Part shown: positions 31,300 through 45,175 of the stretch, one piece after another
Position numbering within the stretch: position 1 is the stretch's first letter
Layout: the number at the start of each line of letters is the position of its first letter
Assembly (NCBI GenBank): GCA_022787565.1
Contig: JALFVN010000066.1
Location: 1-46,651 of the forward strand
Length of the DNA stretch: 46,651 nt
Direction of reading: 5' to 3'
Source: Clostridiales bacterium
GTDB taxonomy: Bacteria; Bacillota; Clostridia; Oscillospirales; Oscillospiraceae
Made by a program: the position numbers and the translations under genes
Notes under the pieces: generated by a model
What the model saw: only the letters and a program-made list of their open reading frames with translations
Database searches by the model: none
Told to the model about the DNA's origin: nothing

Positions 31300-32712
31300 T
31301 CACTTTTTTGCGGAATAGTTCTTATAGCTGCGGTAATACTCTCCGTAGCCGTAATATCCGTAGGCCTTGCCCAGAGCGCCGTGGCTGACGCCGTTCATCA
31401 CGCAGCCGACCAGAGGCAGCCCATCGTCGGAAAGCAGCTGGATCCCCTCCAGGATCTGGCTTTTTGACGCGCAGTCCTGGCGGATGGTGATCAGCGCGCA
31501 GTCGGCCAGGCCGGACAACTCCGAGGCATCGGCCAGCAACGAGCAGGGCGGCGTATCCAGAATGATACAGTCAAACGTCCCCCGCGCCGCAGCAATAAAC
31601 GCCTGGGTTCTCTCCGTTGCCAGAAGCTCAGCCGCGTTGGATACCGGTCTTCCACCGAAAACGGCAAAGAGATTTTCCGTTTTTGTGCTGTGGATCAGCG
31701 CATCTGCCGACTGGGTACCCTTCAGATAGTCGGCCAAGCCGCGGGTGGTCTTCTTTCCCAGAACGCCGGCAACAGAGGGGTTTCTCAGATCGCAGTCCAC
31801 CAGCAAGGTCTTTCTCCCCTTCTGGGCCATGGCCAGGGCAAGATTTGCCGCCACGGTGGTTTTTCCTTCCCCGGGAATGGCGCTGGACACCAGCAGCACC
31901 TTTTTATTCCCCTTTTGCATCTCTTTTTCCACCCGGTGGCAGAGAAGCCGCATGGATTCACCAAAGCCATAGGGATCTCCCTGGCCGGTCAGCCCCGGAT
32001 AGGTTTTTCCCTTCTGGTAGCTCTTCACTGCAGGCAACATGCCCAGACAGCTCACATTGACCAGCCGCCTGAGTTCCTCCTCGTTATGGACTGTGGAGCG
32101 GACAAAGCACAGAAACAGCACCGCACCCAGCCAGAGAACAGCGCCGGAAACAAGCCCTTTTTTCACCGCAGAAGCGTAGTTTCTGCTGTTGATCGGCGCT
32201 GTGGGCAGCCCGCTCTCGTCCAGCAGATACATCTCCGTGGGCCCGACGACAAATTCCGCCACGCTGGGGTAATAGGCAATGACGGCGTTGAGCACGTCAT
32301 AGGCCAGCTGCGGGTCGCCGGAAGTGACGCTCAGCGTGAAGATGTTGGTATTGCTCAGAACACTGGCCGTCACCTTCGGCATGGAGGAGATGCCCAGTTC
32401 ATTCATCACCTTGCTGCTCAGCGCGCCGCTGGTAAGGATGTAGGGGAAGGTTTTCTGCATCTGCTCAGCCGTGGCCGTGTTATAGGTGCGGACCTCCGCC
32501 TGAAGGGGATTTGTCACATAGACGGTAAAGGAGGCCGAAGCCTGATACTGGGGCGAATAAGACCGGTATGTCCGCCAGCAGAAGAAGGCCGCGAGCAGCA
32601 GGATCAGCAGGATCCCCGGCAGCAAAAGCCGTTTTGCCACCCGGCGAAAATCCACAAGCAGGATGCCCAGATCGATTTTGGCCATATTATTTTCGGTATG
32701 CTCATTGCCCAT
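31300..32712 (-). CDS. Wzz/Wzc-type polysaccharide co-polymerase and bacterial tyrosine kinase (copy 1)
   Basis: The 470-residue protein has a Wzz-like chain-length domain between two membrane helices (about residues 30-48 and 183-205), then a cytoplasmic BY-kinase. The kinase shows Walker A SAIPGEGKTTVAANL, Walker A' LLVDCDLR, Walker B CIILDTPP, and a C-terminal tyrosine cluster (YGYYGYGEYYRSYKNY) that is the autophosphorylation site. It regulates export or chain length of a capsular or exopolysaccharide. It has both activities in one chain, unlike most Firmicutes. It lies 32 bases after the second copy, in the same operon. No glycosyltransferase is nearby. Confidence 0.9.
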   Translation of the reverse strand: MGNEHTENNMAKIDLGILLVDFRRVAKRLLLPGILLILLLAAFFCWRTYRSYSPQYQASASFTVYVTNPLQAEVRTYNTATAEQMQKTFPYILTSGALSSKVMNELGISSMPKVTASVLSNTNIFTLSVTSGDPQLAYDVLNAVIAYYPSVAEFVVGPTEMYLLDESGLPTAPINSRNYASAVKKGLVSGAVLWLGAVLFLCFVRSTVHNEEELRRLVNVSCLGMLPAVKSYQKGKTYPGLTGQGDPYGFGESMRLLCHRVEKEMQKGNKKVLLVSSAIPGEGKTTVAANLALAMAQKGRKTLLVDCDLRNPSVAGVLGKKTTRGLADYLKGTQSADALIHSTKTENLFAVFGGRPVSNAAELLATERTQAFIAAARGTFDCIILDTPPCSLLADASELSGLADCALITIRQDCASKSQILEGIQLLSDDGLPLVGCVMNGVSHGALGKAYGYYGYGEYYRSYKNYSAKK

Positions 32713-32744
32713 AATGCGCTCTGTTCCTCCGATTGTTCAGCGGT

Positions 32745-34199
32745 TTACTGTTCACTGTATTTCCCGTACTTTCCGTAGCGGCCGTAATGGCCGTAACGCC
32801 CATATCCGTAACCATAGCCGTAGCTCTCTCCCTGGGGCAGGGAATAGACATTGTTGACCACGCAGCCCAGCAGCCTGGATTTTGCGCTGTTCAGGGAAGC
32901 CACGGCCCGGTTAAGGCCCTCCGCCGTAACATAATTCTGCCTCGCTACCAGCAGCGACGCGTCCACAAGCTCCATGAAAAACTCCGCGTCCGACGCCACC
33001 GACATGGGCGGAGTATCTATGATCACATAGTCGAAGTACTTCCGCACATCTTCCATCAGCTTCGCCATGCCCTCGGAGCCGGCGATCTCCGCGTTGCTCC
33101 GCATTCCTTTTCGCTCCAGCAGCAGATACAGCTCCGTTTCCTTCATGCGGACGATAACATCCTGCATCCCGGCCCGTCCGGCTGCCACATCCACCGTGCC
33201 GAAGCCTCTCCAGGGACATTCCAGGATCTTATAGCAGGCCGGCTTGCGGAAATCGCAGTCCATCAGCAGTACGCGCTTGGATTTTTGGGCCATGGCAAGG
33301 GCCAGATTCACCGCGATGGTGGATTTTCCCTCGTTTTCCATCACGCTGGTGACCATAAGGATCTGCCCGTCTCCGGGCATTTGCGTCTCTATCCTGCGGC
33401 GCAGCTTGCGCATGGTCTCCGTAAACAGGAAGCTGGTAGTGGGTCTGGTGATCAGGATACCGGTTTTCCGCCGTCTGAGCAGCGCGCCCAGGGTTTTATA
33501 TTTCCGCTCATGCCGGATTTCTCCCAGAATCTGGCAGTTCAGTTTCTTTTCCGCCTCCTGACTGCTGCGGACGGTATCCCGCCGGTAGGAGAGCATTCCC
33601 AGAAGCAGGCACATGGCCGCCGCGGTCAAAACCGTCGCTTTCTTCATATAAGAAAAAGCGCGGACCGGGTTGACCGGTGCGACAGGCACCACCGGCTCCT
33701 GCAAAACTTCCAGGATCGTGTCGCCCAGCACCTGGTAGGAGACGATGGCGTGATTTTCAATAATGGCCCGGGTCACCAGGAACGCGGTGCGCGGATCGGT
33801 GGCCGTAACGCGCAGAGTGAGCAGATTGGTCTCCGCAATGGCCGTGGCGCTGATGCTCCCGTCGAAGGAACTCATGCCCAGCGTCTCCAGAATGGTTTTC
33901 CGCAGGATGGAGCTGTTGAGCACCTCGGAAAACACGGCGGCCAGGTTGGTGGTGGCGTTCAGATTCTGATAGACCGTGGTGGAGCTGCCCTTTGCTGAAA
34001 CCACAAAGGTCGTGGTGGTGGCATAGGAGGGAGTGTAGAGCAGATCGGATATCACATAAGCCGCCATTCCTGCCAGCAAGGCTGCCATGATCACAAGATA
34101 CCAACGCTTCAGAATATCCCGTGCAATGGTCAGCGGACTGAAGGAGAGCAGAGATAGCTGCCCGGTCAGGTTTTCTGTCTTTTCCTGCATAGCGCTCAC
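32745..34199 (-). CDS. Wzz/Wzc-type polysaccharide co-polymerase and bacterial tyrosine kinase (copy 2)
   Basis: The 484-residue protein has the same build as copy 1: two membrane helices (about 36-54 and 186-204), Walker A SVMENEGKSTIAVNLA, Walker A' LLMDCDFR, Walker B YVIIDTPP and a tail of alternating G and Y (YGYGYGYGRYGHYGRYGKYG). It differs from copy 1 over most of its length, so this is an old duplication and not a recent one. The tail is longer and more repetitive. Its start overlaps the stop of the Ig-like membrane protein gene by 4 bases. Confidence 0.9.
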   Translation of the reverse strand: MSAMQEKTENLTGQLSLLSFSPLTIARDILKRWYLVIMAALLAGMAAYVISDLLYTPSYATTTTFVVSAKGSSTTVYQNLNATTNLAAVFSEVLNSSILRKTILETLGMSSFDGSISATAIAETNLLTLRVTATDPRTAFLVTRAIIENHAIVSYQVLGDTILEVLQEPVVPVAPVNPVRAFSYMKKATVLTAAAMCLLLGMLSYRRDTVRSSQEAEKKLNCQILGEIRHERKYKTLGALLRRRKTGILITRPTTSFLFTETMRKLRRRIETQMPGDGQILMVTSVMENEGKSTIAVNLALAMAQKSKRVLLMDCDFRKPACYKILECPWRGFGTVDVAAGRAGMQDVIVRMKETELYLLLERKGMRSNAEIAGSEGMAKLMEDVRKYFDYVIIDTPPMSVASDAEFFMELVDASLLVARQNYVTAEGLNRAVASLNSAKSRLLGCVVNNVYSLPQGESYGYGYGYGRYGHYGRYGKYGKYSEQ

Positions 34200-35038
34200 T
34201 CCTCCACCACAACGATCAGCCGGGTGTATCCGGTATAATTGCCGTATTTCACCGTATAGGCCACGCTGTAAGTTCCCGGCGTATTGGTGCTGACGTCGGA
34301 GCTGCAGGAGACGGAGACCCGGTCGTTTGCATTGCGCAGGTCGATCTTCTCCCCGGAAACGCGCAGCGTTTTTAAATAAGAATTGGGTTCAAATCTGGCT
34401 CCCTGCTTCAGATAGACCAGATTTTCGCTGAGCTCCACCGTGGCGTTGTAAGCGCCGGAGGGACAGACCTCCACCGGCACAGTCAGATAAACCGTGTCGT
34501 TCATGCTGTTGGTCACGCGGAATTCCACCTCGTGGACCCCCTCCGTGGTGATCGAGCTCTCCCGGCTGACCAGCGTCGCCTTAACCCGATCGTCCAGCGT
34601 GCCGTCGATCACATCCTCCGCGCCCACATAATTGAGCACATTAAAGGAGATCCCGCTGCGGAACACCAGAGGGGCAGACAGCGTGAATCTGGGGCTCTGA
34701 TAGTCGGTATAGCGCAGTGTGCGTTTGGCCTTTGCCACGTTTCCGGCTTTGTCAAAGGCGGCATAGGTCACCGTGGCGGTCTGATCCGGAGACAGTTCGG
34801 AGATCCCCTCCACCACAAGGCTGCCGGTCACGTCTCCGTCCCGCTTATCCGTAGCCGTGACGCCGTAGAGCAGCTCTGCTTCCGTCACGCCCACGGAAAC
34901 TTCGATCTCCCCGCTCTGGAAGGAGATTTCCGGAGCCGCATGGTCGGCAGCCTGCCTGGAAAGGACATAGTAAGCCCCGAAAGCAGCGCAGCACAGCGCG
35001 GTGAAAAGCACAGCGACTTTTTTCCCCTTTTCCCTCAC
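34196..35038 (-). CDS. membrane-anchored protein with Ig-like (DUF5011-type) domains
   Basis: The 280-residue protein has one N-terminal membrane helix (about residues 8-24) and an extracellular part of two or three beta-sandwich repeats. The first (LLYGVTATDKRDGDVTGSL) has the pattern of DUF5011/HYR-like bacterial Ig domains; the last is NTPGTYSVAYTVKYGNYTG. The start is a GTG at 35038 with AGGAG 8 bases before it; a nearby ATG is in another frame. It is the first gene of the operon with the two BY-kinases, so it may be an outer partner of the polysaccharide export or polymerase complex. This role is inferred. Confidence 0.75.
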   Translation of the reverse strand: MREKGKKVAVLFTALCCAAFGAYYVLSRQAADHAAPEISFQSGEIEVSVGVTEAELLYGVTATDKRDGDVTGSLVVEGISELSPDQTATVTYAAFDKAGNVAKAKRTLRYTDYQSPRFTLSAPLVFRSGISFNVLNYVGAEDVIDGTLDDRVKATLVSRESSITTEGVHEVEFRVTNSMNDTVYLTVPVEVCPSGAYNATVELSENLVYLKQGARFEPNSYLKTLRVSGEKIDLRNANDRVSVSCSSDVSTNTPGTYSVAYTVKYGNYTGYTRLIVVVEE

Positions 35039-35356: not shown

Positions 35357-35385
35357 TTGACAAAAGTGTTCCGATTTACTATAAT
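35357..35385 (+). promoter_or_regulatory. sigma-A promoter of the peptide-modification operon
   Basis: TTGACA (35357-35362) and TATAAT (35380-35385) are exactly 17 bp apart, a perfect consensus match. It faces the PqqD-like gene with a leader of about 103 bases. Confidence 0.9.
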
Positions 35386-35413
35386 TTCCTGATAGATACT
35401 GGGGTTAATATTC

Positions 35414-35459
35414 GCATAAGGGTATACCCTTATGCCTTTCCCTTTGGAAAAGGCATAAG
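35414..35459 (+). promoter_or_regulatory. leader with two mutually exclusive hairpins
   Basis: A perfect 22-bp palindrome (35414-35435, arms of GCATAAGGGTA) overlaps a second hairpin in which 35429-35439 pairs with 35449-35459 (11 bp plus two more pairs after a bulge). The word CTTATGC at 35429-35435 is needed for both, so only one can form at a time. The palindrome could also be a protein operator. The site ends 35 bases before the first start codon. Confidence 0.65.
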
Positions 35460-35494
35460 CTGGAAATTTGCAGCCGGGCCGGAAGGATGGACAT

Positions 35495-35761
35495 ATGAAG
35501 ATCAGAGACAACTTTATTTTGCGTGAAGTCGCCGGCGAGCATATTCTGATCCCAGTGGGCGAGGCCGCTCTCCGGGTCCACGGCATGGTCACGCTGAGCG
35601 AAAGCGCCGTTCTGCTTTATGAAAGACTGCAGAACGAATGTGATGAAGAAGCCCTGGTGGATGTGCTCACCGGGGAGTACGACGTGGACCGGGACGAGGC
35701 CCTGCAGGATGTAAAGGCTTTCCTGGACCAGATGCGGCATGTCGGCATATTGGAAGGATGA
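35495..35761 (+). CDS. PqqD-family RiPP recognition protein
   Basis: The 88-residue protein is a stand-alone PqqD-like domain (MKIRDNFILREVAGEHILIPVG ending at a DVKAFLDQMRHVGILEG helix). Such proteins bind the leader of a precursor peptide and deliver it to a radical SAM enzyme. It is the first gene of a five-gene operon that holds a precursor-like peptide and a radical SAM/SPASM gene. The start at 35495 follows GGAAGGAT; an upstream in-frame Met at 35468 has no ribosome site. The rest of PQQ synthesis is absent, so a RiPP role is meant. Confidence 0.88.
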   Translation: MKIRDNFILREVAGEHILIPVGEAALRVHGMVTLSESAVLLYERLQNECDEEALVDVLTGEYDVDRDEALQDVKAFLDQMRHVGILEG

Positions 35762-35765
35762 TTCA

Positions 35766-36521
35766 ATGAGAGCAAAAAAACGCGGAGCGAACAGGCTTGG
35801 CCTGGCGCTGCTGGTGCTGCTGTGTGTTCTGATGCTGCTTCTGCTGAGCTGGGGCGGCGTCTCAGGCAGCCCGGAAGAAACTCCCGGACCGGCAGGAAGC
35901 CCGGAGCCGGTCAGTTCTTCCGAAGCGCCCCAGCCGTCCGCCTCACCGGAGCAGGACAATACCCGCTTTAATGTGGAGCTGCCTTATGACCTGGAAAACG
36001 GCGATCTGCGCATCATTTCCCTGTTTCAGACCGATGCGCTGAACCCGGACTGCAACGATGAAGAGGGCAGCGATCTGGCCTCGGTGGAGCTGGTGAACCT
36101 TTCAGACAAGTATCTGGAAGAAGCCCGGCTGACCATTGCTCTGACGGACGGCACGGTGCTGGAATTTCTTGTACAGGATCTGCCCGCGGGAATGACCGTA
36201 TGGGCCTTCGAGACAGGCAACCAAAGCCTGGCGGACGACTCGAAATGCGAAACCATTGACTGTGCAGCGCAGTTTTTGGACGTCCGGCCGCTGATGAGCG
36301 GCATAAGCACGGAGGCCTCCGGCGCCAGTCTGAAGGTGACAAACCAGACCGGCGGGGATATCCCTGTTTTGACCCTGCGGATCCACTGTCTCTTTGAAAA
36401 TGTTTACTTCGGCGGAAAATCCGCTGAATATACCATTGAAAACTTGGCAAACGGCGCTGCGGCGGAGATCACCGCTGTGGAATGTTACATGGGAACGGCC
36501 CAGGCCGCTTCCATCCGATAA
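35766..36521 (+). CDS. membrane-anchored extracellular protein of unknown function in the RiPP operon
   Basis: The 251-residue protein has one N-terminal membrane helix (about residues 12-30), a Pro/Ser/Glu-rich linker (about 35-65) and an extracellular domain of about 185 residues with alternating strands that looks like two beta-sandwich units. Three Cys occur in CETIDC and CLFEN. No signal cleavage site is obvious, so it is probably anchored. I do not recognise the family. The start at 35766 lies 4 bases after the PqqD stop, so it is coupled. It could be a display partner, immunity protein or sensor for the peptide product. Confidence 0.7.
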   Translation: MRAKKRGANRLGLALLVLLCVLMLLLLSWGGVSGSPEETPGPAGSPEPVSSSEAPQPSASPEQDNTRFNVELPYDLENGDLRIISLFQTDALNPDCNDEEGSDLASVELVNLSDKYLEEARLTIALTDGTVLEFLVQDLPAGMTVWAFETGNQSLADDSKCETIDCAAQFLDVRPLMSGISTEASGASLKVTNQTGGDIPVLTLRIHCLFENVYFGGKSAEYTIENLANGAAAEITAVECYMGTAQAASIR

Positions 36522-36553
36522 GGCCGTGTTCAGATACAGGAAGGAGAACGAGA

Positions 36554-36817
36554 ATGAAGAAATATGTGAAGCCTGAGCTCTTTTTCGAGAGCTTCGAGCT
36601 CAGCCAGAGCATCGCAGCCTGCGGGATCGATGTGAATTTTACAAGCGTGACCGATAACAACTGCAGACCAACCCTGGATCTAGTAATGTGGGGCCCCATA
36701 GGCGGCACTAACGTTTTTGGACAAGGCAGAGACGATTGTGCAACAGATATCAGCGCTTACGATGTTTACTGCCACACCGCTGGCACCAGCGAGGCCGGAA
36801 GGCTGTTCAACTCCTGA
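36554..36817 (+). CDS. candidate RiPP precursor peptide
   Basis: The 87-residue peptide begins with a charged, leader-like MKKYVKPELFFESFELSQSI, then AACGIDV. The rest is a glycine- and polar-rich core with Cys at 23, 37, 62 and 73, several Thr, Asp and Asn, one Trp and three Phe, and a C-terminal Ser (RLFNS). It has no membrane helix or signal peptide. It has a strong ribosome site (AAGGAG, 7 bases) and its stop overlaps the start of the kinase gene (TGATG). Its place between a PqqD-like protein and a radical SAM/SPASM enzyme makes it the likely substrate. I recall similar KKYVKPEL...LSQSIA starts in other gut Firmicutes, unchecked. Core, crosslinks and cleavage site are not known. Confidence 0.72.
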   Translation: MKKYVKPELFFESFELSQSIAACGIDVNFTSVTDNNCRPTLDLVMWGPIGGTNVFGQGRDDCATDISAYDVYCHTAGTSEAGRLFNS

Positions 36818-37692
36818 TGGCTGAGCGGCGGCATTACCGCCTGCGCATTTCCGGCGTTGGGATTGCCTTTTCCTCGTCTCAGCCTTTGCCGGTGACGGAG
36901 CGCTTTGCCCCTTTCCTCACGGAGGAGCGCGGGACGGACTTTTTTGTGGAATACCGCGAAGTCCCCGCACTCACGGTCCCCTTGGGCGAGCCGGTGTATA
37001 AAGGCGAGCGTTTCTGGGTCTGGCAGGAGGAAAACGGCGTCTTTTCCCGCTGGTATTTCGACGGGATGCAGGGCAATGCCTTTTTTGCCCGTTCCCGGCA
37101 GGACAGGGCGGATCATGTTCAGGTGGACTATTCCCCCATCGGGCGGGAGCTGGTCTCCGACATGGGCAACTGCTTTTCCTTCTGCGGATGGGAAATGCTG
37201 CTGCTGCAAAAGGAGAGACTGCTGCTTCATGCCTCCTGTGTGGATACCCCGCTGGGCGGTCTGCTGTTCTCCGGCCCCTCAGGCATCGGGAAAAGCACCC
37301 AGGCGGAGTTATGGCGGCAGTACGCGGGCGCAGAGCTGATCAACGGCGACAGGCCCATTCTCAGCCGGGACGAACAGGGCTGGCACGCCTGGGGCTCCCC
37401 CTATGCCGGTTCCTCCCGCCGCTTTGTGAATGAAAGCTGCGCTCTCCGGGCCCTTGTCCTGCTGAAGCAGGCGAAAAGCTGTGATCTCCGCCGTCTCCGC
37501 GGCGCGGACGCTTTCCGCCGGGTATTTGCCGGAGCAACAGCGAACAGCTGGGACAGGACCTCCGTTCAGAATGTCTGCCGTCTGACAGAGCAGCTGGTCT
37601 CCGATCTGCCGGTGTACGAGCTGTCCTGCACGCCTGACCGGGCGGCGGTGGAGCTGCTCCGGGCCGAGCTGGAGAGAAAGGCATCAATATGA
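36817..37692 (+). CDS. HPr kinase-like protein
   Basis: The 291-residue protein has the P-loop of HprK-like kinases, FSGPSGIGKSTQAE (GPSGIGKST at 153-161), preceded by HAS at 138-140 and followed by INGDRPIL and the Gly/Ser loop GSPYAGSS. The N-terminal half has no clear match. HprK-like proteins in lasso peptide clusters phosphorylate the C-terminal Ser of the precursor. Here the precursor gene directly upstream ends in Ser and the genes overlap. A kinase for the peptide is the leading idea; it is an inference, and some HprK-like proteins have other substrates. Confidence 0.75.
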   Translation: MAERRHYRLRISGVGIAFSSSQPLPVTERFAPFLTEERGTDFFVEYREVPALTVPLGEPVYKGERFWVWQEENGVFSRWYFDGMQGNAFFARSRQDRADHVQVDYSPIGRELVSDMGNCFSFCGWEMLLLQKERLLLHASCVDTPLGGLLFSGPSGIGKSTQAELWRQYAGAELINGDRPILSRDEQGWHAWGSPYAGSSRRFVNESCALRALVLLKQAKSCDLRRLRGADAFRRVFAGATANSWDRTSVQNVCRLTEQLVSDLPVYELSCTPDRAAVELLRAELERKASI

Positions 37693-38816
37693 CTGAGAAT
37701 TCTACCATCAGCCCCACCCGCCTGACGGAGTACATGTACACCAAAGCCGGCAGAATGGGCGTCCCCATAGGCGGCACCTTTGAGCTGTCCCCGGTCTGCA
37801 ACTTTGCCTGCCGCATGTGCTATGTGCGCAAGACGGCCAGAGAGGTTGCAGAAAGTGAGCGCCCCATCCTGACGCTGGACGATTGGCTGAGAATTGCCCA
37901 TGAAGCCCGGGAACAGGGTCTGCTGTACCTGCTTCTGACCGGCGGCGAGCCTTTCCTCTGGCCCCATTTCTGGCCGCTGTATGAAGAACTGATCAAAATG
38001 GGCTTTCTGGTTTCCATCAATACCAACGGCTCGTTGATCGACGATAAAGCGGTGGAGCAGTTAAAGCGTCTGCCTCCCCGCAGAGTCAATATCACCCTCT
38101 ACGGCGCAAGCGATGAGACCTACGAAGCCCTGTGCCGGACCAAAGGCGTTTTTACCAGGGTCACCCACGCCATCGAGTCTCTGCAAAGGGCCGGCATCCT
38201 GGTCAAGCTCAACGGCACCATCACCCCGGATAATGTCTGCGATCTGGATTACCTGATCGACTATGCAAAAGACCGGGGGCTGATCCTTGAGACCACGACT
38301 TATCTGTTTCCTCCTGTCCGGCGGGATCCCTCCATGACCGGCGTCAACCGCCGTTTCACCCCGGAGGAAGCCGCCCGGGTCCAGATGCATATATACCGCC
38401 GCCAAAACGGCGAGGAGCGGTATCAGGCTTATCTTGAAGCCATTACCAAAGGCTCCATTCCCCCGCCGGGACTGGACGAGTCCTGTATCGACCCCGTGGA
38501 CGGCAAGGTCCGCTGCCGTGCGGGCCGGGCCTCCTTTTGGGTCACCTGGGACGGCTGGCTCACCCCCTGCGGCATGATGATCCAGCCCAGCGTTGAGCTG
38601 AACGGGCAGTCCTTCGGCGACGCCTGGCAGCAGCTCCGGGAGGAAATGGGCCGCGCGGCCCTGTCCGGCGTCTGCGCCAAATGTCCCGACCAGTCGCTGT
38701 GCAACGCCTGCGCTGCCATGGCCCAGACGGAGACCGGCAGCATATCCGGCATCCCCACCTACCTGTGTCAGATCGTGCGCGAAATGCGCCGCATCGCCCA
38801 GACGGAGCGTGAATAA
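37689..38816 (+). CDS. radical SAM/SPASM peptide-modifying enzyme
   Basis: The 375-residue protein has the radical SAM motif CNFACRMC (C37, C41, C44), the following TGGEPFLW and a SPASM domain with Cys at 276, 294, 329, 332, 338, 341 and 360. The SPASM domain holds auxiliary Fe-S clusters used by sactipeptide, ranthipeptide and related maturases. The closest relatives I can recall are unassigned peptide maturases of gut Firmicutes. It starts inside the stop of the kinase gene (ATGA). It probably makes C-S or C-C links in the upstream peptide. No terminator or transporter follows; repeats begin after the stop. Confidence 0.88.
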   Translation: MTENSTISPTRLTEYMYTKAGRMGVPIGGTFELSPVCNFACRMCYVRKTAREVAESERPILTLDDWLRIAHEAREQGLLYLLLTGGEPFLWPHFWPLYEELIKMGFLVSINTNGSLIDDKAVEQLKRLPPRRVNITLYGASDETYEALCRTKGVFTRVTHAIESLQRAGILVKLNGTITPDNVCDLDYLIDYAKDRGLILETTTYLFPPVRRDPSMTGVNRRFTPEEAARVQMHIYRRQNGEERYQAYLEAITKGSIPPPGLDESCIDPVDGKVRCRAGRASFWVTWDGWLTPCGMMIQPSVELNGQSFGDAWQQLREEMGRAALSGVCAKCPDQSLCNACAAMAQTETGSISGIPTYLCQIVREMRRIAQTERE

Positions 38817-38850
38817 GCGCCCCGCATCTCCTCCGCACTTCACCCCCCGC

Positions 38851-39235
38851 CGTAGGGGCGACCCTTGCGGTCGCCCGCTTCCCACCGGCTCCGGACGCAC
38901 TTTATCCCCCATCGTAGGGGCCGGCGTCCCCGACGGCCCTTCTCCCCGGCTTTCTCTGCCCCCTGCACGGGCGATTCGTGAATCGCCCCTACGTTTCTCC
39001 TCCCCTTGCAGGGGCGCTTCACGAGGCGCCCGCTCCCCTCCGTCATTCTGAACCGCGAAGCGGTGAAGAATCCCGTCACCCCCCTCTGTCATTCTGAGGA
39101 GCATCCGCGACGAAGAATCCCCTGAACAGACGTTCCGTTCCCTGTCATTCTGAACCGCGTAGCGGTGAAGAATCCCGCAAACAGAACTCCCCCAGCGTAA
39201 CCGCACGGGATCCTTCGCTGCCGCTCAGGATGACA
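38851..39235. repeat. mosaic of small palindromic extragenic repeats
   Basis: This gene-free region between the radical SAM and sialidase genes is filled with two repeat families. Four GTAGGGGC-type units occur at about 38851-38878, 38911-38940, 38967-38992 and 39007-39032, each a small palindrome such as GGGCGACC with GGTCGCCC. Three TCATTCTGA...GAAGAATCC units (39041-39076, 39087-39121, 39143-39178) and one inverted copy (39206-39235) follow. No gene is visible up to 39349. Confidence 0.75.
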
Positions 39236-39364
39236 CATGGTCCTCCCCATTGGCTCCCCCCACAGTCCCATCCCCTTGACCCCCTTGGTATAAACGGCAA
39301 GACCCCATGTTTTGCTTTTATATAATTTTCATTAATCTCAATTCACTTGAGGAGGTTAATTCAA

Positions 39365-42300
39365 ATGAAGCGTGTAAAAACCTTGTCCCTGCTTCTGGCC
39401 CTGTGCATGATCTTCAGTCTTGCCATGCCGGTAAGCGCCTTTGCGGACGAAGATTCCGCTCCCGTCGAGGATCCCATCGTCACGGAGACTCCGGTGGAGA
39501 CGCCTGTTGTCACTTCCGTCCCCGAAGTGAGCCCAGCTCCCTCCGAGACGCCTGACGCGGAGGAGTCCCCTGTTCCCTCGGATACGCCCGCGGACAGCGA
39601 GCCTGCAGGTGATATATCCGCAGATGACGAGTCTGCCGCTGACGACGAGCCCGGTGATTATACCCTGTCCAACCCGGACGAGGGCGTCGCCACCACGTCT
39701 CTTACCATGGGCACAAAGCCCGCTGACGGTACCACCACCGGCAATCCCTTTGTGAAGGGCACCGGCGGCAGCAACAGCTTCCGCATTCCCGCCCTGGTCA
39801 CCCTGAATAACGGCACCCTGGTGGCGGCAGCGGATGCCCGCTGGAACACCACCTATGACGGCGGCGGTCTGGACACCATTGTCAGCTACTCCATCAATAA
39901 TGGCTCCAGCTGGAACTACACCTTTGCCAACTATCTGGGCGACAATGGCAACACCTATAACGGCAGCGGCTCCACCGCGTTCATTGACCCCGCCCTGGCC
40001 ACTGACGGCAGCACGGTCTACATGCTCTGCGACCTGTATCCTTACGGCGTGGCTCTGAACGGCAGCGGCAACACCGCGCCCTCTACTGCTGTCGGCTTCA
40101 ATTCTAACGGCAAGCTGCTGTTGTCAACCGATGGCTCCAACTACAATTACTATTTGGATGGCACTGTTATCAAGGACAGCAGTGGCAATGAGGTCTCCGG
40201 GCTGACTGTAGATTCCTACTTCAATGTCACCGGTACCTATAACAATACAGCATATAATACCAACCTGTTCTTCTCCGATTCCCCCTTCAAGGTCGTCCGC
40301 ACCGGCTACCTGTACCTGACCAGCTCCTCTGACGGCGGAAAGAACTGGTCCGCGCCTACGCTGATCCCCAATGTCAAGACCTCCTCTGAGCAGGTCTGCC
40401 TGGTTGGCCCCGGCCGCGGTCTGGTGACCGGCGACAAGATCATCTTCCCGGTTTACAGCTATAATAACGGCAACCAGCAGATGGGCTTTATCTACTCCTC
40501 TGACGGCGGCGCAACCTGGACCCGCTCTGCCAACTTCACCGGCGACAGCTGGAGCTCTGAGGCCGCCGTGGTAGCGTTGAAAGACGGCACCCTGCGCTTC
40601 TTCTACCGCAACGGCAATTCCACGTTGCGCTATGTGGATTATTCCTGGACGAATGGCTGGGGCAGTGCCGTGAATACCGGCATTGCCACCAATTCCAACA
40701 CCCAGATCTCCGCCATCTCCTATTCCAAGACCGTGGGCGGCAAGCAGGTCATCCTCGTTTCCTGCCCCACCGGAAGCAACAGTAATGGTTCTGCTGATTC
40801 CAGCGCCAGCGCCCGTCTCAACGGACGGATTCAGATCGGCCTGGTCGACAGCAAAACCAATACCATGACTTGGGAGACCCCCATTGACGTCACCACCAAC
40901 AACAGTCAGTTCATGTATTCCTGCCTGACCGAGCTGAATGACGGCAAGGTTGCTATCCTCTATGAAAACCAGGAGAGCAAGTGGGGTACCGGTGATAACT
41001 GCTACTACACCATGGCTTTCGCGACCTATGACCTGGGTCTGACCTTTGACAGCGGCAACTCTGGCGAAGGTGAAGATATTTATGTTGACAATGGCGAAGG
41101 CGGAACCGGCATCACGATCAATTTTGGCGGAACAGCGGTTGCGGCAGATGCTGTTACAATTACAGCTGTAAATCCTGAAGTTCTTTCTGACAAGACCTAT
41201 TTGGCTTATGATATCGCTGTGACTGGTTTCAGCGGCGAATCCGCCAAGGTAACCATTCCCCTGAACGGCAAGTTTGCTGCTGATGCAAAGCTGTACGCGG
41301 TGTATATCAATGCTGACGGCCAACTCACCGAGGAAACGTTCACAGGCGATTTCGACGTGACTGCAGATACCTTCACTTTCGTTGCAACGCACTTCTCCAC
41401 CTATGCGGTCCTGGCTGAAGCTGCTGAGAGTGAACTTCCTGCGCATGAAAATGAGAAGGACATTACCCTTGCTGTTGATGGCAAGGAAACCGTCACCGAT
41501 GAAACCGGCAACCATGAGAGCAGCTATACCGGCGCGGGGTTGAACGAAAGCATTGCCACTGTGACGGTGAAAGGCGAGACTACAACCATTCCTGGCGGAA
41601 CCACAACTGGATTGGTTACTTCTCTTGTAGATGGAAACTATATCATTGGCAACGGTAGCCAGTGGCTCACACTTACGAACGGGACGCTTGGCACCACAGA
41701 TACCGCAGCAAATGCCACGGAATGGACGATCACCGCTTCTAACGGCAGCTATACCATCCAGTCTGGTAGCTATTACCTTGGATGGGAGAGCTCATCAAAC
41801 AGCAGTTGGGGCACAACTACCTATACCTATACTCTTTCTGCAGTTACGAGTGCAGCCAGTTGGTCTTATAACAGTTCAACAGGATTGTATTCAAATTTGA
41901 CTTACCAGTATAACAGGTGGAGTGGTACAACAGATTCCGATTATTACCTCAGCTATAGTAACGGCTGGACCATGGCGCGAAATAATGCTTCCTCTTATGG
42001 CCGAGTATATACAAGGGCCACCGAAGCAGGCGGAACAACAGAAAAAACCACCATCACCTTCACCGGCGTGACTGCGGGTGAGACCCAGGTTGTTGTTGGT
42101 CAAACCCTCTATAACATCACCGTCAATCGCAAAGAGGTGTCAGTACCTCTCACTGTCGGCAATACTGCGACTTATACCGACAAGAACGCCGGAAGCGTTA
42201 CTGTTGCTGACAACACCGTTGCCGAAGCTTCTCTGACCAACGGAGAACTCACCATCAAGGGCCTGAAGGAAGGCACCACCACTGTCACCACTGCCACCAC

Positions 42301-45175
42301 TAAGTATACCGTCACGGTTTCTGATGGCACGCCCATTTCCATCAAGGAAAATGAGACCACAACCATCTCCGTTACCCTGGAAGACGGCCAGACCGTGGAA
42401 TGGTCCTCTGCTGACAGCAGCCATGTGGGCGTGGCAGGCAAGTATGACACCGATTCCGGAGCCTACACCAACGAGGCCATTCTGGCCGGCCAGAACGTGA
42501 CCGAAAGCCCCGTAACTGTCACCGGCACGGTTTACAACGCCGATGGTTCTGTGGCAGGCGTATACAAGTGGCTGGTCACCGTCACCAAGGGCGATGACGA
42601 TACCAATACCTCTTCAAAGGGCATTTACTTCAACATTGATACCATTGAAAACTGCACCGTCTATTACTCCATTAACGGCGGTGAGCTGATTCCCGTCAAT
42701 GGAACCGGCGTGACCACCGGCAACTGGACAGGCAACGGCACCTACACCGGCCACTTCAATATCATGTTCTTTGCGGCCCCGGATGAGGGGTATGCCCTGA
42801 CCTATATGAGCATTTCCGGCTCCGCTGACCAGTACTATACCCTGTCCAACGGCAACCCAGACGGTACCGGCAGCGACGCCTGGCCATTTAATGACCCAAG
42901 CGCTTCTACCATTCCCAGCTCCAGCGGCGATTCTGCATGGAAAACCATCGACGGTTCCCTGCACGGCTTCCGCTGGGCTCTGCTGGAGGGCAACATGACC
43001 ATCGACCAGATGAAGGTCCTGTTCTCCAATGCTATTGCCTTGGGTTGCGATGGTGCAACAACCATCACGAAGAACAGCACATCTGGTATGGGCAGCGCCA
43101 GCAGCCCCACGGTCTGCAAGTTTGTCGCCCAGAAGCTGCCCACCGTGAAGAAGACCATCAAGAGCATTACTCACAATGGCACAGAAACCCCTTATACCGA
43201 CGGCATGAAGGTGGAGATTGGCGACACCATCAAATACAGTGTTGTTGTCACCCGCTATGCCACCAATTCCACCTACGGCACCATTACCTATGATAAGGAA
43301 AAGCTGACAGATGAGCTGACCGGCAACAGCGGTATCAGTAATCCCGACATGGGCACCTCCACCACCAGCGATAAGACCTATACTTATACGACAAGTCTGA
43401 CCCTGACAATGGACAACTTTGCCGATGTTGTAGAGAACGGTACGATCACCAACACCGTGGATTTCTCCTACAGCTATTCCTCCCAGTACAGCGCGGGTTC
43501 TCTGGACACCGAGGCCTCCGCAGTGGCAGAAATCACGGTCAAGGTTCCCGAATATGTCATCGACTTTGGCCTGCCTGTGACAATTGACCTGAGCAGCGTG
43601 CTCGGCGGTGCGGCCATCGCCAGCGGTTCAGCTTCTTACGGAACAATTACTCCCAGTGGCACAAGCTTTACTTACACGCCCAATACGGTCCTTCGCGGTG
43701 TGGACTATGTGACCTTGACTCTGGGTAACAAGCAGACCTACGGCGTTAACATCTACCCCGCCACCACCGTTTTCTATGAAGAAAGCTTTGCCGTTGCCGA
43801 AGCAAATCCCGTAAGCGACCTCCAGACTACGCAGCCCGCCGGCAGCAGTTCAGATGCGTACGGCTATGACGCCGCTTATGCCGGAAGCGTCCGTACTTCC
43901 ACTGAGCTCAACAACGCCGGTTTCAGCTTCACCGGCACCGGTGTGGATATCTACACCAACAATACCACTGCTGACGCCTGGATGATGGTCGTCATCAAGA
44001 GCGGCAACACCATCGTCAAGGCAGCTCAGGTCAACACCGCAATGAAGAACGGTACCACCGAGGCAACCACGAATCAGGCCGTTGACGGATACGGCGTCCC
44101 GGTTTACAGTATTGATAGTCTGGCCTACGGCAGCTACACGGTTACCCTGACCCAGATGAGCGGCAAAGCTGTTCAGTTGGATGGCTTCCGCGTTTACAAC
44201 ACGCTGGAAAACAAGAAAGATCCGGTCTACGTCAATGACCTTGAGGACGATCCCGTATTCATCGAGCTCCGTGACCGTGTGCTTGCATCTTTGAACGCAG
44301 CCGCAGATAACTCCAACCAGTATGCCGCGCAGATATCCCGCAACACCCTGTCTCAGGTCTATGCCACTGCCGGAACTACCGGCGGAGTCGTGATCACAGC
44401 CAAACCGGGCACCTATAATAAGGACACTCTGCAGGATCTGCTGGATAATGGCCCCAAGAACGAGATCTACCTCCAGCCCGGCCAGGCTCTGACCTTTAAG
44501 CTCAATACAAACCGCGAGGTTCAGCTCGGCCTGCGGGCGCTGAATGAGGCGGCAAGCTATACAATTAATAACGATGCCGCCAAGACCGTCTCTTCCAACA
44601 CCGACATGTTCTACACGGTGCTTGCCAAGAGAGCGGATACTGCCGAGCAGGGGGTCACTGTCACCAATACAGGCAAAACAATCCTGGCTTTGACCAAGCT
44701 GAAGGTCTGCGACGATCCCAACTTCAGCTTTGTGGAACTGACAGACGAAGATCTTGTTCCCGCTCTGGTCAGCCTGGGTTATGAGCTTGAGCCCGATGAG
44801 CCTGAGGTTCAGTACGCCGACGCAGTCCTGACCGTTGAAGTAAACGGCCAGACCGCAGTCCTCACCAAAAACGGCGTTGTGGGCGAGTCCGCCACCTTCA
44901 CCGCAGCGGAGATCGAAGCCGCTGCCCAGGGCCTGGTTCCCGATGGCTATGAGCTGAAAGATCAGGCAGCGGACGTGGCCGTGGCCTACGGTGGTTCCTC
45001 CACCGTCAGCCTCAGCGCGGAAGCGATTCCCACCGAGCCTGAACAGCCCGAGGAGCCTGAGAAGCCCGCCGAACCCGAAAAACCCGCACAGCCTGAGAAA
45101 CCCGCCAATATCATCTCCGCCGTGATCCGTCTGATCGACAGGATTTTCGGCTCCCTCAAGGGCTTCTTCCGCTGA
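39365..45175 (+). CDS. large secreted sialidase (GH33) with accessory domains
   Basis: The 1937-residue protein has a signal peptide (residues 1-27, ending VSAFA), a Pro/Glu/Asp-rich linker to about 105, then a sialidase domain (about 110-565). FRIPAL (139-144) holds the first arginine of the triad. Asp boxes are visible (SSSDGGKNWS, YSSDGGATWT), and the ILYENQE stretch fits the catalytic Glu. It releases sialic acid from mucin. Later regions include an Ig/lectin-like part and repeats, one near 1270-1300 (PTVKKTIKSITHNG). The last about 50 residues are Pro/Glu/Lys repeats followed by IISAVIRLIDRIFGSLKGFF, an amphipathic helix and not an LPXTG signal. The ATG at 39365 follows AGGAGGT. Confidence 0.9.
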   Translation: MKRVKTLSLLLALCMIFSLAMPVSAFADEDSAPVEDPIVTETPVETPVVTSVPEVSPAPSETPDAEESPVPSDTPADSEPAGDISADDESAADDEPGDYTLSNPDEGVATTSLTMGTKPADGTTTGNPFVKGTGGSNSFRIPALVTLNNGTLVAAADARWNTTYDGGGLDTIVSYSINNGSSWNYTFANYLGDNGNTYNGSGSTAFIDPALATDGSTVYMLCDLYPYGVALNGSGNTAPSTAVGFNSNGKLLLSTDGSNYNYYLDGTVIKDSSGNEVSGLTVDSYFNVTGTYNNTAYNTNLFFSDSPFKVVRTGYLYLTSSSDGGKNWSAPTLIPNVKTSSEQVCLVGPGRGLVTGDKIIFPVYSYNNGNQQMGFIYSSDGGATWTRSANFTGDSWSSEAAVVALKDGTLRFFYRNGNSTLRYVDYSWTNGWGSAVNTGIATNSNTQISAISYSKTVGGKQVILVSCPTGSNSNGSADSSASARLNGRIQIGLVDSKTNTMTWETPIDVTTNNSQFMYSCLTELNDGKVAILYENQESKWGTGDNCYYTMAFATYDLGLTFDSGNSGEGEDIYVDNGEGGTGITINFGGTAVAADAVTITAVNPEVLSDKTYLAYDIAVTGFSGESAKVTIPLNGKFAADAKLYAVYINADGQLTEETFTGDFDVTADTFTFVATHFSTYAVLAEAAESELPAHENEKDITLAVDGKETVTDETGNHESSYTGAGLNESIATVTVKGETTTIPGGTTTGLVTSLVDGNYIIGNGSQWLTLTNGTLGTTDTAANATEWTITASNGSYTIQSGSYYLGWESSSNSSWGTTTYTYTLSAVTSAASWSYNSSTGLYSNLTYQYNRWSGTTDSDYYLSYSNGWTMARNNASSYGRVYTRATEAGGTTEKTTITFTGVTAGETQVVVGQTLYNITVNRKEVSVPLTVGNTATYTDKNAGSVTVADNTVAEASLTNGELTIKGLKEGTTTVTTATTKYTVTVSDGTPISIKENETTTISVTLEDGQTVEWSSADSSHVGVAGKYDTDSGAYTNEAILAGQNVTESPVTVTGTVYNADGSVAGVYKWLVTVTKGDDDTNTSSKGIYFNIDTIENCTVYYSINGGELIPVNGTGVTTGNWTGNGTYTGHFNIMFFAAPDEGYALTYMSISGSADQYYTLSNGNPDGTGSDAWPFNDPSASTIPSSSGDSAWKTIDGSLHGFRWALLEGNMTIDQMKVLFSNAIALGCDGATTITKNSTSGMGSASSPTVCKFVAQKLPTVKKTIKSITHNGTETPYTDGMKVEIGDTIKYSVVVTRYATNSTYGTITYDKEKLTDELTGNSGISNPDMGTSTTSDKTYTYTTSLTLTMDNFADVVENGTITNTVDFSYSYSSQYSAGSLDTEASAVAEITVKVPEYVIDFGLPVTIDLSSVLGGAAIASGSASYGTITPSGTSFTYTPNTVLRGVDYVTLTLGNKQTYGVNIYPATTVFYEESFAVAEANPVSDLQTTQPAGSSSDAYGYDAAYAGSVRTSTELNNAGFSFTGTGVDIYTNNTTADAWMMVVIKSGNTIVKAAQVNTAMKNGTTEATTNQAVDGYGVPVYSIDSLAYGSYTVTLTQMSGKAVQLDGFRVYNTLENKKDPVYVNDLEDDPVFIELRDRVLASLNAAADNSNQYAAQISRNTLSQVYATAGTTGGVVITAKPGTYNKDTLQDLLDNGPKNEIYLQPGQALTFKLNTNREVQLGLRALNEAASYTINNDAAKTVSSNTDMFYTVLAKRADTAEQGVTVTNTGKTILALTKLKVCDDPNFSFVELTDEDLVPALVSLGYELEPDEPEVQYADAVLTVEVNGQTAVLTKNGVVGESATFTAAEIEAAAQGLVPDGYELKDQAADVAVAYGGSSTVSLSAEAIPTEPEQPEEPEKPAEPEKPAQPEKPANIISAVIRLIDRIFGSLKGFFR

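Follow-up and report, generated by a model that had tools for sequence, protein, structure and literature searches.

A 46,651-nucleotide stretch of DNA from a Clostridiales bacterium (contig JALFVN010000066.1), here called the window, contains a five-gene operon that probably encodes the maturation of a ribosomally synthesized and post-translationally modified peptide (RiPP). In the proposed pathway, a PqqD-family protein would bind the YxxPxL leader of a small peptide, as its family is known to do, a radical S-adenosylmethionine (SAM)/SPASM enzyme would install one or more cross-links in the Cys-bearing core, and a kinase with an HprK/PEPCK fold would phosphorylate the C-terminal Ser. We put the probability of these three steps at about 0.7. 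The peptide consists of a fixed leader, a variable core and a tail ending in Ser; this anatomy and the gene linkage are conserved among relatives, and the peptide is often paired with a large secreted-type protein. The genes concerned are these:

35495..35761, plus strand: PqqD-family leader-binding protein (RiPP recognition element, RRE), 88 amino acids; Pfam PqqD E 1.8e-15, above cut-off
35766..36521, plus strand: membrane-anchored protein, 251 amino acids; N-terminal transmembrane helix, Pro/Ser-rich linker and beta-sandwich region
36554..36817, plus strand: predicted precursor peptide, 87 amino acids with 4 Cys; leader MKKYVKPELFFESFELSQSIAAC, variable core with further Cys, tail ending FNS
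36817..37692, plus strand: HprK/PEPCK-fold P-loop kinase, 291 amino acids, proposed C-terminal-Ser kinase; H138, GPSGIGKST, NGDR
37689..38816, plus strand: radical SAM/SPASM enzyme, 375 amino acids, proposed modifier of the Cys core; Pfam Radical_SAM E 3.4e-26, above cut-off
39347..45175, plus strand: large secreted sialidase-like protein, up to 1942 amino acids, proposed partner of the peptide; BNR_2 E 9.8e-16, signal-peptide-like start

The peptide has the hallmark of a RiPP precursor, a conserved leader and a variable core encoded beside modifying enzymes. When genome contigs were first scanned with the radical SAM protein, 13 loci (L002-L014) were recovered, and in all ten of the closest (L002-L011) a small open reading frame (ORF) with a like leader adjoins the kinase and radical SAM genes on their upstream side. 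The 11 aligned peptides (window plus L002-L011) all share Y4, K6, P7, A21, C23, C37 and the final Ser, S87. Between L002 and L003, the radical SAM enzymes are 98.7% identical and the kinases 97.9%, and the peptides agree at 25 of 25 leader residues, 8 of 9 tail residues and 21 of 50 core residues, with a core DNA identity of 0.55 over 48 aligned codons. The window is 85-89% identical to these two loci in its enzymes and matches them at 25/25 residues in the leader and 24/54 and 22/53 in the core. Exchange of the core by recombination between L002 and L003 was considered and rejected: silent sites in the core are saturated, but divergence is also greater in the PqqD and membrane-protein genes than in those for the kinase and the radical SAM enzyme. 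A fast-changing core is all that this comparison appears to support, and fast-changing Cys cores are found throughout the 67 peptides collected by their leaders. A lipobox reading of the motif IAAC was also discarded, as no hydrophobic signal segment is visible by eye.

The enzyme encoded with the peptide carries the Cys signature of the SPASM/radical SAM group. C37/C41/C44 (CX3CX2C) and C276, C294, C329, C332, C338, C341 and C360 are invariant in 11 of 11 aligned sequences, and the Pfam SPASM model itself scores below its cut-off (14.8 versus 21.5 bits). In 295 genomes sampled from the order, at E cut-offs of 1e-60 for the radical SAM enzyme, 1e-10 for the kinase family and 1e-3 for the precursor, the three were found in 8, 86 and 4 genomes, respectively. 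Among 400 genomes of the family, 34 have the enzyme (E <=1e-70), 32 the precursor and 30 both. The precursor profile was built largely from loci of these same genomes, and the informative part of the co-occurrence is that it matches only 2 of the 366 family genomes that have no enzyme match.

Linkage was counted over the 63 loci, taken from the surroundings of all enzyme hits, whose radical SAM match has an E value below 1e-40, and L012 was added to make 64; L012-L014 lie outside the 63-locus set, and L074 entered it through its kinase rather than its radical SAM gene. The kinase is present at 58 of the 64 radical SAM loci, a PqqD match at 46 of 64 and relatives of the membrane protein at 27 of 63. 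The first-pass annotation, made from the window alone, had proposed that the peptide is the substrate of the PqqD/radical SAM system, a proposal that would be contradicted by its absence from close relatives with the enzyme genes. A peptide is recognised in 46 of the 58 kinase loci and in none of the stretches fetched for the other 12, and the substrate assignment is supported by the fixed leader, the variable core, the kept gene linkage and the genome co-occurrence. These same features, together with the PqqD-type leader motif and the linkage to a SPASM enzyme, make it very improbable that the small ORF is an unmodified accessory peptide instead of a precursor, a reading that draws on modification of the core being so far a prediction from sequence.

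Other genes are linked at some of the 63 loci: ABC exporters at 9, S26-like genes at 8 and nucleotidyltransferase-type PF14907 genes at 5, with each domain verified on one member and the S26 match under the Pfam cut-off. The exporters and peptidases linked in these relatives had been missed by the first-pass annotation. Two further radical SAM relatives occur in the window's own genome. One (L060, G000:C24) has a kinase, a PqqD protein and two long Ser-ending precursors beside Wzz/CpsD-type genes; the other (L061, G000:C6) is without a kinase or recognised precursor.

Nearly every peptide ends in Ser. Precursors were gathered by a leader pattern blind to the C-terminus; seven rows were dropped as other-frame or distant ORFs (L004 8462, L006 2319, L067 twice, L073 6437, L117 1858 and L118 10536), two peptides missed by the leader regular expression (L109, L123) were added by eye before Ser was counted, and a possible peptide of L074 ending in Thr was excluded as unrecognisable. 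Of the 45 kinase-adjacent peptides in this set, 42 end in Ser, as do all four further peptides that a leader-only profile, also blind to the C-terminus, found in kinase loci. Ser is last in 46 of these 49 and second-last in the remaining 3. A whole-peptide profile, applied to 16 and 400 genomes, gave 43 readable peptides at 44 loci, 38 of them Ser-ending, in a set that overlaps the earlier one. Over the merged set of 67 precursor places, the last residue is Ser in 62, Tyr in 2, Ala in 2 and Phe in 1, and Ser makes up 7.0% of the remaining residues. The plain binomial probability of 62 in 67, 2e-65, makes the evidence look too strong because the loci are related; when the 42 loci with both enzyme and precursor are clustered at 70% enzyme identity, 33 of 35 clusters are all-Ser. 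Position -3 is Phe in 20 of 45 peptides.

We propose that the kinase phosphorylates this Ser, because the residue is near-invariant and because PadeK-type lasso kinases phosphorylate a C-terminal Ser. In PMC9266682, the Ser modified by PadeK, ThcoK and SyanK is described as extremely conserved, and the kinases are said to need a His-Lys-Asp-Asp motif whose first Asp is essential. PMC10368454 reports the same motif for BsfK, a more distant lasso kinase that acts on Ser3. PadeK and ThcoK are compared here through the published motif rather than by sequence. The predicted structure of the window kinase matches PEPCK and HprK structures over its whole length, as expected for that fold, and its score against Pfam Hpr_kinase_C is below cut-off (13.3 versus 33.3 bits). 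The candidate substrates have the terminal Ser of the PadeK type (46/49), and the kinase departs from the motif: it keeps the His, the P-loop Lys and the second Asp, and the first Asp is Gly (NGD). NGD is found in 56 of 63 kinases by script and by eye in L074 and L142; CND occurs in L071 and L119, SSD in L121 and NDD in L075, a short sister kinase, and L073 was not parsed.

The replaced Asp invites the alternative that the kinase-like protein spares the peptide, being another NTPase or having another target, and that the Ser is kept for a different reason. A sister family (L035, L037-L056) of HprK-like kinases of about 240 residues, more widespread in the order, keeps NDDK. PqqD is present in 18 of its 21 loci, an S24/S26 signal-peptidase-like gene is often seen by eye, and none of the 21 stretches, each 2-4 kb, has a radical SAM match. 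Some of these loci encode tiny acidic YxxP peptides, and none of nine YxxP-type ORFs, five of them judged clear (L037, L038, L041 and two in L045), ends in Ser. Such kinases beside peptides without a terminal Ser favor the alternative, but the retained His, P-loop Lys and second Asp, the fold match over the whole length and a Ser that is last or second-last in every kinase-adjacent peptide argue against it, and we consider it unlikely. The C-terminal Ser, the tie to lasso kinases and the sister family had all gone unnoticed in the first-pass annotation. Mobility of the genes was considered and rejected: no radical SAM match to a plasmid record (40) or a phage record (3) reaches 60% identity, those in the rows listed being at 35% or less, and a short sister kinase has matches in 3 plasmid records at 33-35% identity.

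The peptide is also often paired with a large exoprotein, a pairing absent from the first-pass annotation. In the window this is the sialidase-like protein, which ends in the hydrophobic tail NIISAVIRLIDRIFGSLKGFFR. A large secreted-type frame stands in the same position in L002, L003, L004, L006, L007 and L010; the types at that position are GH20 (L002, L003, L007) and sialidase-type (L004, L006, L103). L008 has a sialidase fragment ended by the contig end, and in L005, whose contig stops about 1 kb after the enzyme, no large frame is seen. At other loci, the precursor starts only a few bases behind the end of a giant frame (GH20 in L009, L117, L118 and L126; GH53 in L104; VWA in L109 and L113), and giant frames with no clear catalytic domain lie just before it in L106, L114, L119, L128, L132 and L134. 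In L131 the precursor follows the end of an endonuclease I protein by 192 nt; in L135 the precursor is itself followed, 429 nt downstream, by the start of a GH20 protein.

To be counted by locus, an exoprotein had to be an open frame of at least 600 amino acids with few Arg, His and Cys and many Ser, Thr, Gly and Asn, in a locus of at least 9 kb. Of 43 loci that have both the radical SAM enzyme and the kinase, 28 contain such a frame; among loci lacking the kinase it is 2 of 5, and among control stretches taken from these genomes at arbitrary positions 2 of 29 (Fisher p 5e-7, which ignores kinship). When counted by precursor, with frames of at least 350 amino acids and the same composition rule, a secreted-type frame ends no more than 60 nt before the start of 31 of 67 precursors, compared to 1 of 406 control ORFs. 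Within 4 kb the figures are 48 of 67, 17 of them beyond the first 31, and 12 of 200.

What changes the picture most is that separation from the enzymes does not part the peptide from the exoprotein. Five genomes of one genus show no recognised precursor at the radical SAM/kinase locus and together have ten precursors on other contigs, each of which starts 9-21 nt after the end of a secreted-type frame. Two of the three precursors in G558 are at least ~130 kb from the enzymes if contigs abut, and in a sixth genome of the genus, G479, the precursor is linked (L114). Only these ten of 17 extra whole-profile peptides were taken as unlinked. Of the remaining seven, two are some 7 kb (L197) and 12 kb (L206) away from a radical SAM gene, L206 and L214 apparently have a kinase downstream, L217 and L218 are on contigs shorter than 5 kb, and L189 and L190 were set aside. 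By eye, the exoproteins before the unlinked precursors end in an amphipathic-looking tail, for example IVKQIVSSFVSNLFRSISRLFGN, and the tail of the window sialidase looks similar. A recurrent end motif resembling ALKLYGDLAAEYFNK / AMLRYGDAASAYF takes the place of the amphipathic tail in exoproteins of L116, L124, L127, L130, L131, L136-L138, L197 and L206.

The later steps of the pathway are less certain. Leader removal and export would be carried out by a protease and an exporter encoded outside the operon, such as the ABC exporters and S26-like genes linked in some relatives. The mature peptide may then work with the co-encoded exoprotein, here the sialidase, as a small subunit, anchor or ligand; judged from the gene pairing, we give this step somewhat less than even odds. 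A broader picture, which we hold only tentatively, is that gut Clostridia pair RiPPs with exoproteins through one radical SAM plus Ser-kinase maturase. The gene for each phosphorylated, cross-linked peptide would adjoin or immediately follow that of a giant secreted protein of its own (sialidase, hexosaminidase, nuclease or VWA protein), sometimes at an unlinked locus served in trans, and the peptide would be a dedicated, fast-evolving subunit or anchor of that protein at the cell surface.

Two other explanations bear on the exoprotein. The peptide could be an ordinary competitive, bacteriocin-like RiPP residing in surface or exopolysaccharide islands, with the exoprotein nearby as a matter of genome geography. 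This would suit a core that changes much faster than the enzymes, the ABC exporters at nine loci, and the Wzz/CpsD-type genes near the operon in the window and some relatives. However, it does not predict that ten of ten enzyme-unlinked peptides follow a secreted-type frame so closely when 1 of 406 control ORFs does, and no immunity gene was recognised by eye, though no search was aimed at one; we regard it as rather doubtful. Alternatively, the product that the enzyme cross-links may be a small polypeptide built into the exoprotein as a structural subunit, with the terminal phosphate as a targeting or quality mark. This is a special form of the exoprotein step and overlaps with our proposal. 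Its gene logic resembles that of QhpC as described in PMC7876137, but the core is hypervariable and the exoprotein domains differ (BNR, GH20, GH53, Endonuclease I, VWA) instead of belonging to one conserved enzyme, which makes this form improbable.

Several observations weigh against the three-step pathway or its extension to the exoprotein. With Gly for the first Asp, kinase activity is not assured, and the Ser could instead serve recognition or packing. Five of the 67 peptides lack a terminal Ser, ending instead in GSY (L064), GSF (L066), LSY (L129), ASA (L133) or TSA (L182), with Ser second-last in all five. The sole precursor available from a kinase-less radical SAM locus is that of L066, on the divergent strand and with the Phe end, so kinase and Ser are inseparable in these data. 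L012, a radical SAM relative (E 9e-72, 30% identity), passes the enzyme threshold, but neither a kinase nor a PqqD match lies within 13 kb of it, and it is possibly a different use of the enzyme. The 12 kinase loci without a recognised precursor in the fetched stretch are L016, L068, L074, L105, L107, L108, L110, L111, L121, L122, L125 and L142; five of them, from one genus, have family peptides on other contigs, and the L122 peptide is about 7 kb away. The window sialidase frame begins 530 nt after the radical SAM gene, beyond a set of repeats; 15 of 43 loci have no giant frame, and 19 of 67 precursors lack a secreted-type frame in the 4 kb around them, three of these being situated where a contig or locus ends. 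The composition filter is our own and imperfect, having passed an ABC exporter (L070, not counted) and GAPDH; the latter accounts for the downstream frames of L131 and L138, both of which still count through an upstream exoprotein 184-192 nt away. Finally, the loci are related by kinship, which means that the counts are not independent, and the genomes are mostly draft or metagenome-assembled.

The compact, promoter-led operon of the first-pass annotation is real, as judged by its coordinates, gaps and overlaps, promoter and above-cut-off Pfam matches to PqqD and Radical_SAM. Five genes are closely packed on the plus strand over 35357-38816, with gaps of 4 nt between the PqqD and membrane-protein genes and 32 nt before the peptide, and overlaps of 1 nt between peptide and kinase and 4 nt between kinase and radical SAM gene. 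Two elements stand at its head:

35357..35385, plus strand: promoter-like site TTGACA-N17-TATAAT, 12/12 match to consensus
35414..35435, no strand assigned: 22-bp perfect palindrome in the sequence directly 3' of the promoter, before the PqqD gene

The whole window contains 2 perfect TTGACA-N17-TATAAT matches, compared to a mean of 0.01 per shuffle of its sequence, and identical hexamers with a 17-nt spacer are read by eye upstream of PqqD in L002, L003 and L004. The palindrome may be a regulator/operator site or a 5' RNA hairpin, because, by eye, the same place holds a 9-bp stem with paired changes in L002 and an imperfect stem in L003. An AlphaFold2 model of the membrane protein (pLDDT, predicted local distance difference test, 81) has one helix and a beta-sandwich region, and Foldseek returned no PDB match at E <=1e-3 (best E 1.2e-3). 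Between the radical SAM and sialidase genes, positions 38834-39185 contain diverged direct repeats, among them 34-nt copies of GTCATTCTGAACCGCGNAGCGGTGAAGAATCCCG, with the appearance of dispersed intergenic elements. The minus strand at 31300-35038 encodes, divergently from the operon, an Ig-like surface protein and a pair of Wzz/CpsD-type ATPase proteins, and L002, L003, L060, L069 and L074 have relatives of the three.

If the pathway is as proposed, it would define a RiPP class in which a SPASM radical SAM enzyme is joined by a C-terminal-Ser kinase of the lasso type, and RiPP chemistry may here serve to equip proteins that are secreted and in part directed at mucin, not to produce a free antibiotic. 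Since the Ser is near-invariant, the target of the kinase can be tested directly, and the NGD kinase itself is a naturally occurring variant with which to probe the role of the first Asp in an HprK-type active site. Experiments are feasible because a named isolate, Anaeromassilibacillus senegalensis An867 (L004), carries the system.

How does this system compare with known ones? The first-pass annotation could name no class for it. This agrees with NCBIfam, where none of the best 25 of 69 rows for the radical SAM protein is over its cut-off, and with our searches of open-licence PubMed Central papers, which turned up no report of a RiPP combining a radical SAM enzyme with an HprK-like kinase. 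With paeninodin-type lasso peptides (PadeK/ThcoK/SyanK) it shares a YxxPxL leader, a discrete PqqD-like B1/RRE protein, an HprK-like kinase and a precursor with C-terminal Ser. It differs in having a radical SAM/SPASM enzyme instead of a lasso cyclase and B2 peptidase, a long Cys-rich core, and NGD rather than DD in the kinase. The bsf lasso cluster has N (nucleotidyltransferase) and D (ABC) genes, according to PMC10368454, and some relatives here carry a PF14907 gene and an ABC exporter. A Pfam scan of window proteins, the five of the operon and five neighbours, found no lasso cyclase or B2 peptidase domain.

Sactipeptides and ranthipeptides (AlbA, SkfB, CteB, RumMC) likewise combine a SPASM radical SAM enzyme with a Cys-bearing peptide, and the class has a PqqD/RRE partner. 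To our knowledge, these systems have no kinase and no C-terminal Ser, both of which are present here, and the window enzyme has no family match over cut-off among the best 25 NCBIfam rows. The NCBIfam HPr-rel-A families (TIGR04352/TIGR04353) also pair a PqqD-family protein with an HprK-related kinase, but the scores here fall under their cut-offs (11.4 versus 200 and 24.4 versus 35 bits), outside the families. The short NDDK kinase loci share a related kinase, PqqD (18/21) and, in some, YxxP-type peptides, and differ in a kinase of ~240 amino acids with DD kept, in peptides none of which ends in Ser (0/9) and in the absence of a radical SAM match over their 2-4 kb (21/21).

The remaining comparison is with quinohemoprotein amine dehydrogenase. 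QhpC is a small polypeptide with a leader; a radical SAM enzyme introduces its cross-links, and it is exported and joins large subunits (PMC7876137). A small polypeptide, here with predicted radical SAM modification, is in both cases encoded with one or more large exported proteins; of the traits of a QhpC-type subunit, it is this gene pairing of peptide and exoprotein that is observed here. The hypervariable core, the kinase, partner domains that vary by locus and the lack of any recognised heme protein set our system apart. By these tests the system belongs to none of the groups compared; it seems to combine the workings of PadeK-type lasso tailoring with those of SPASM maturases, and its gene logic is like that of QhpD/QhpC.

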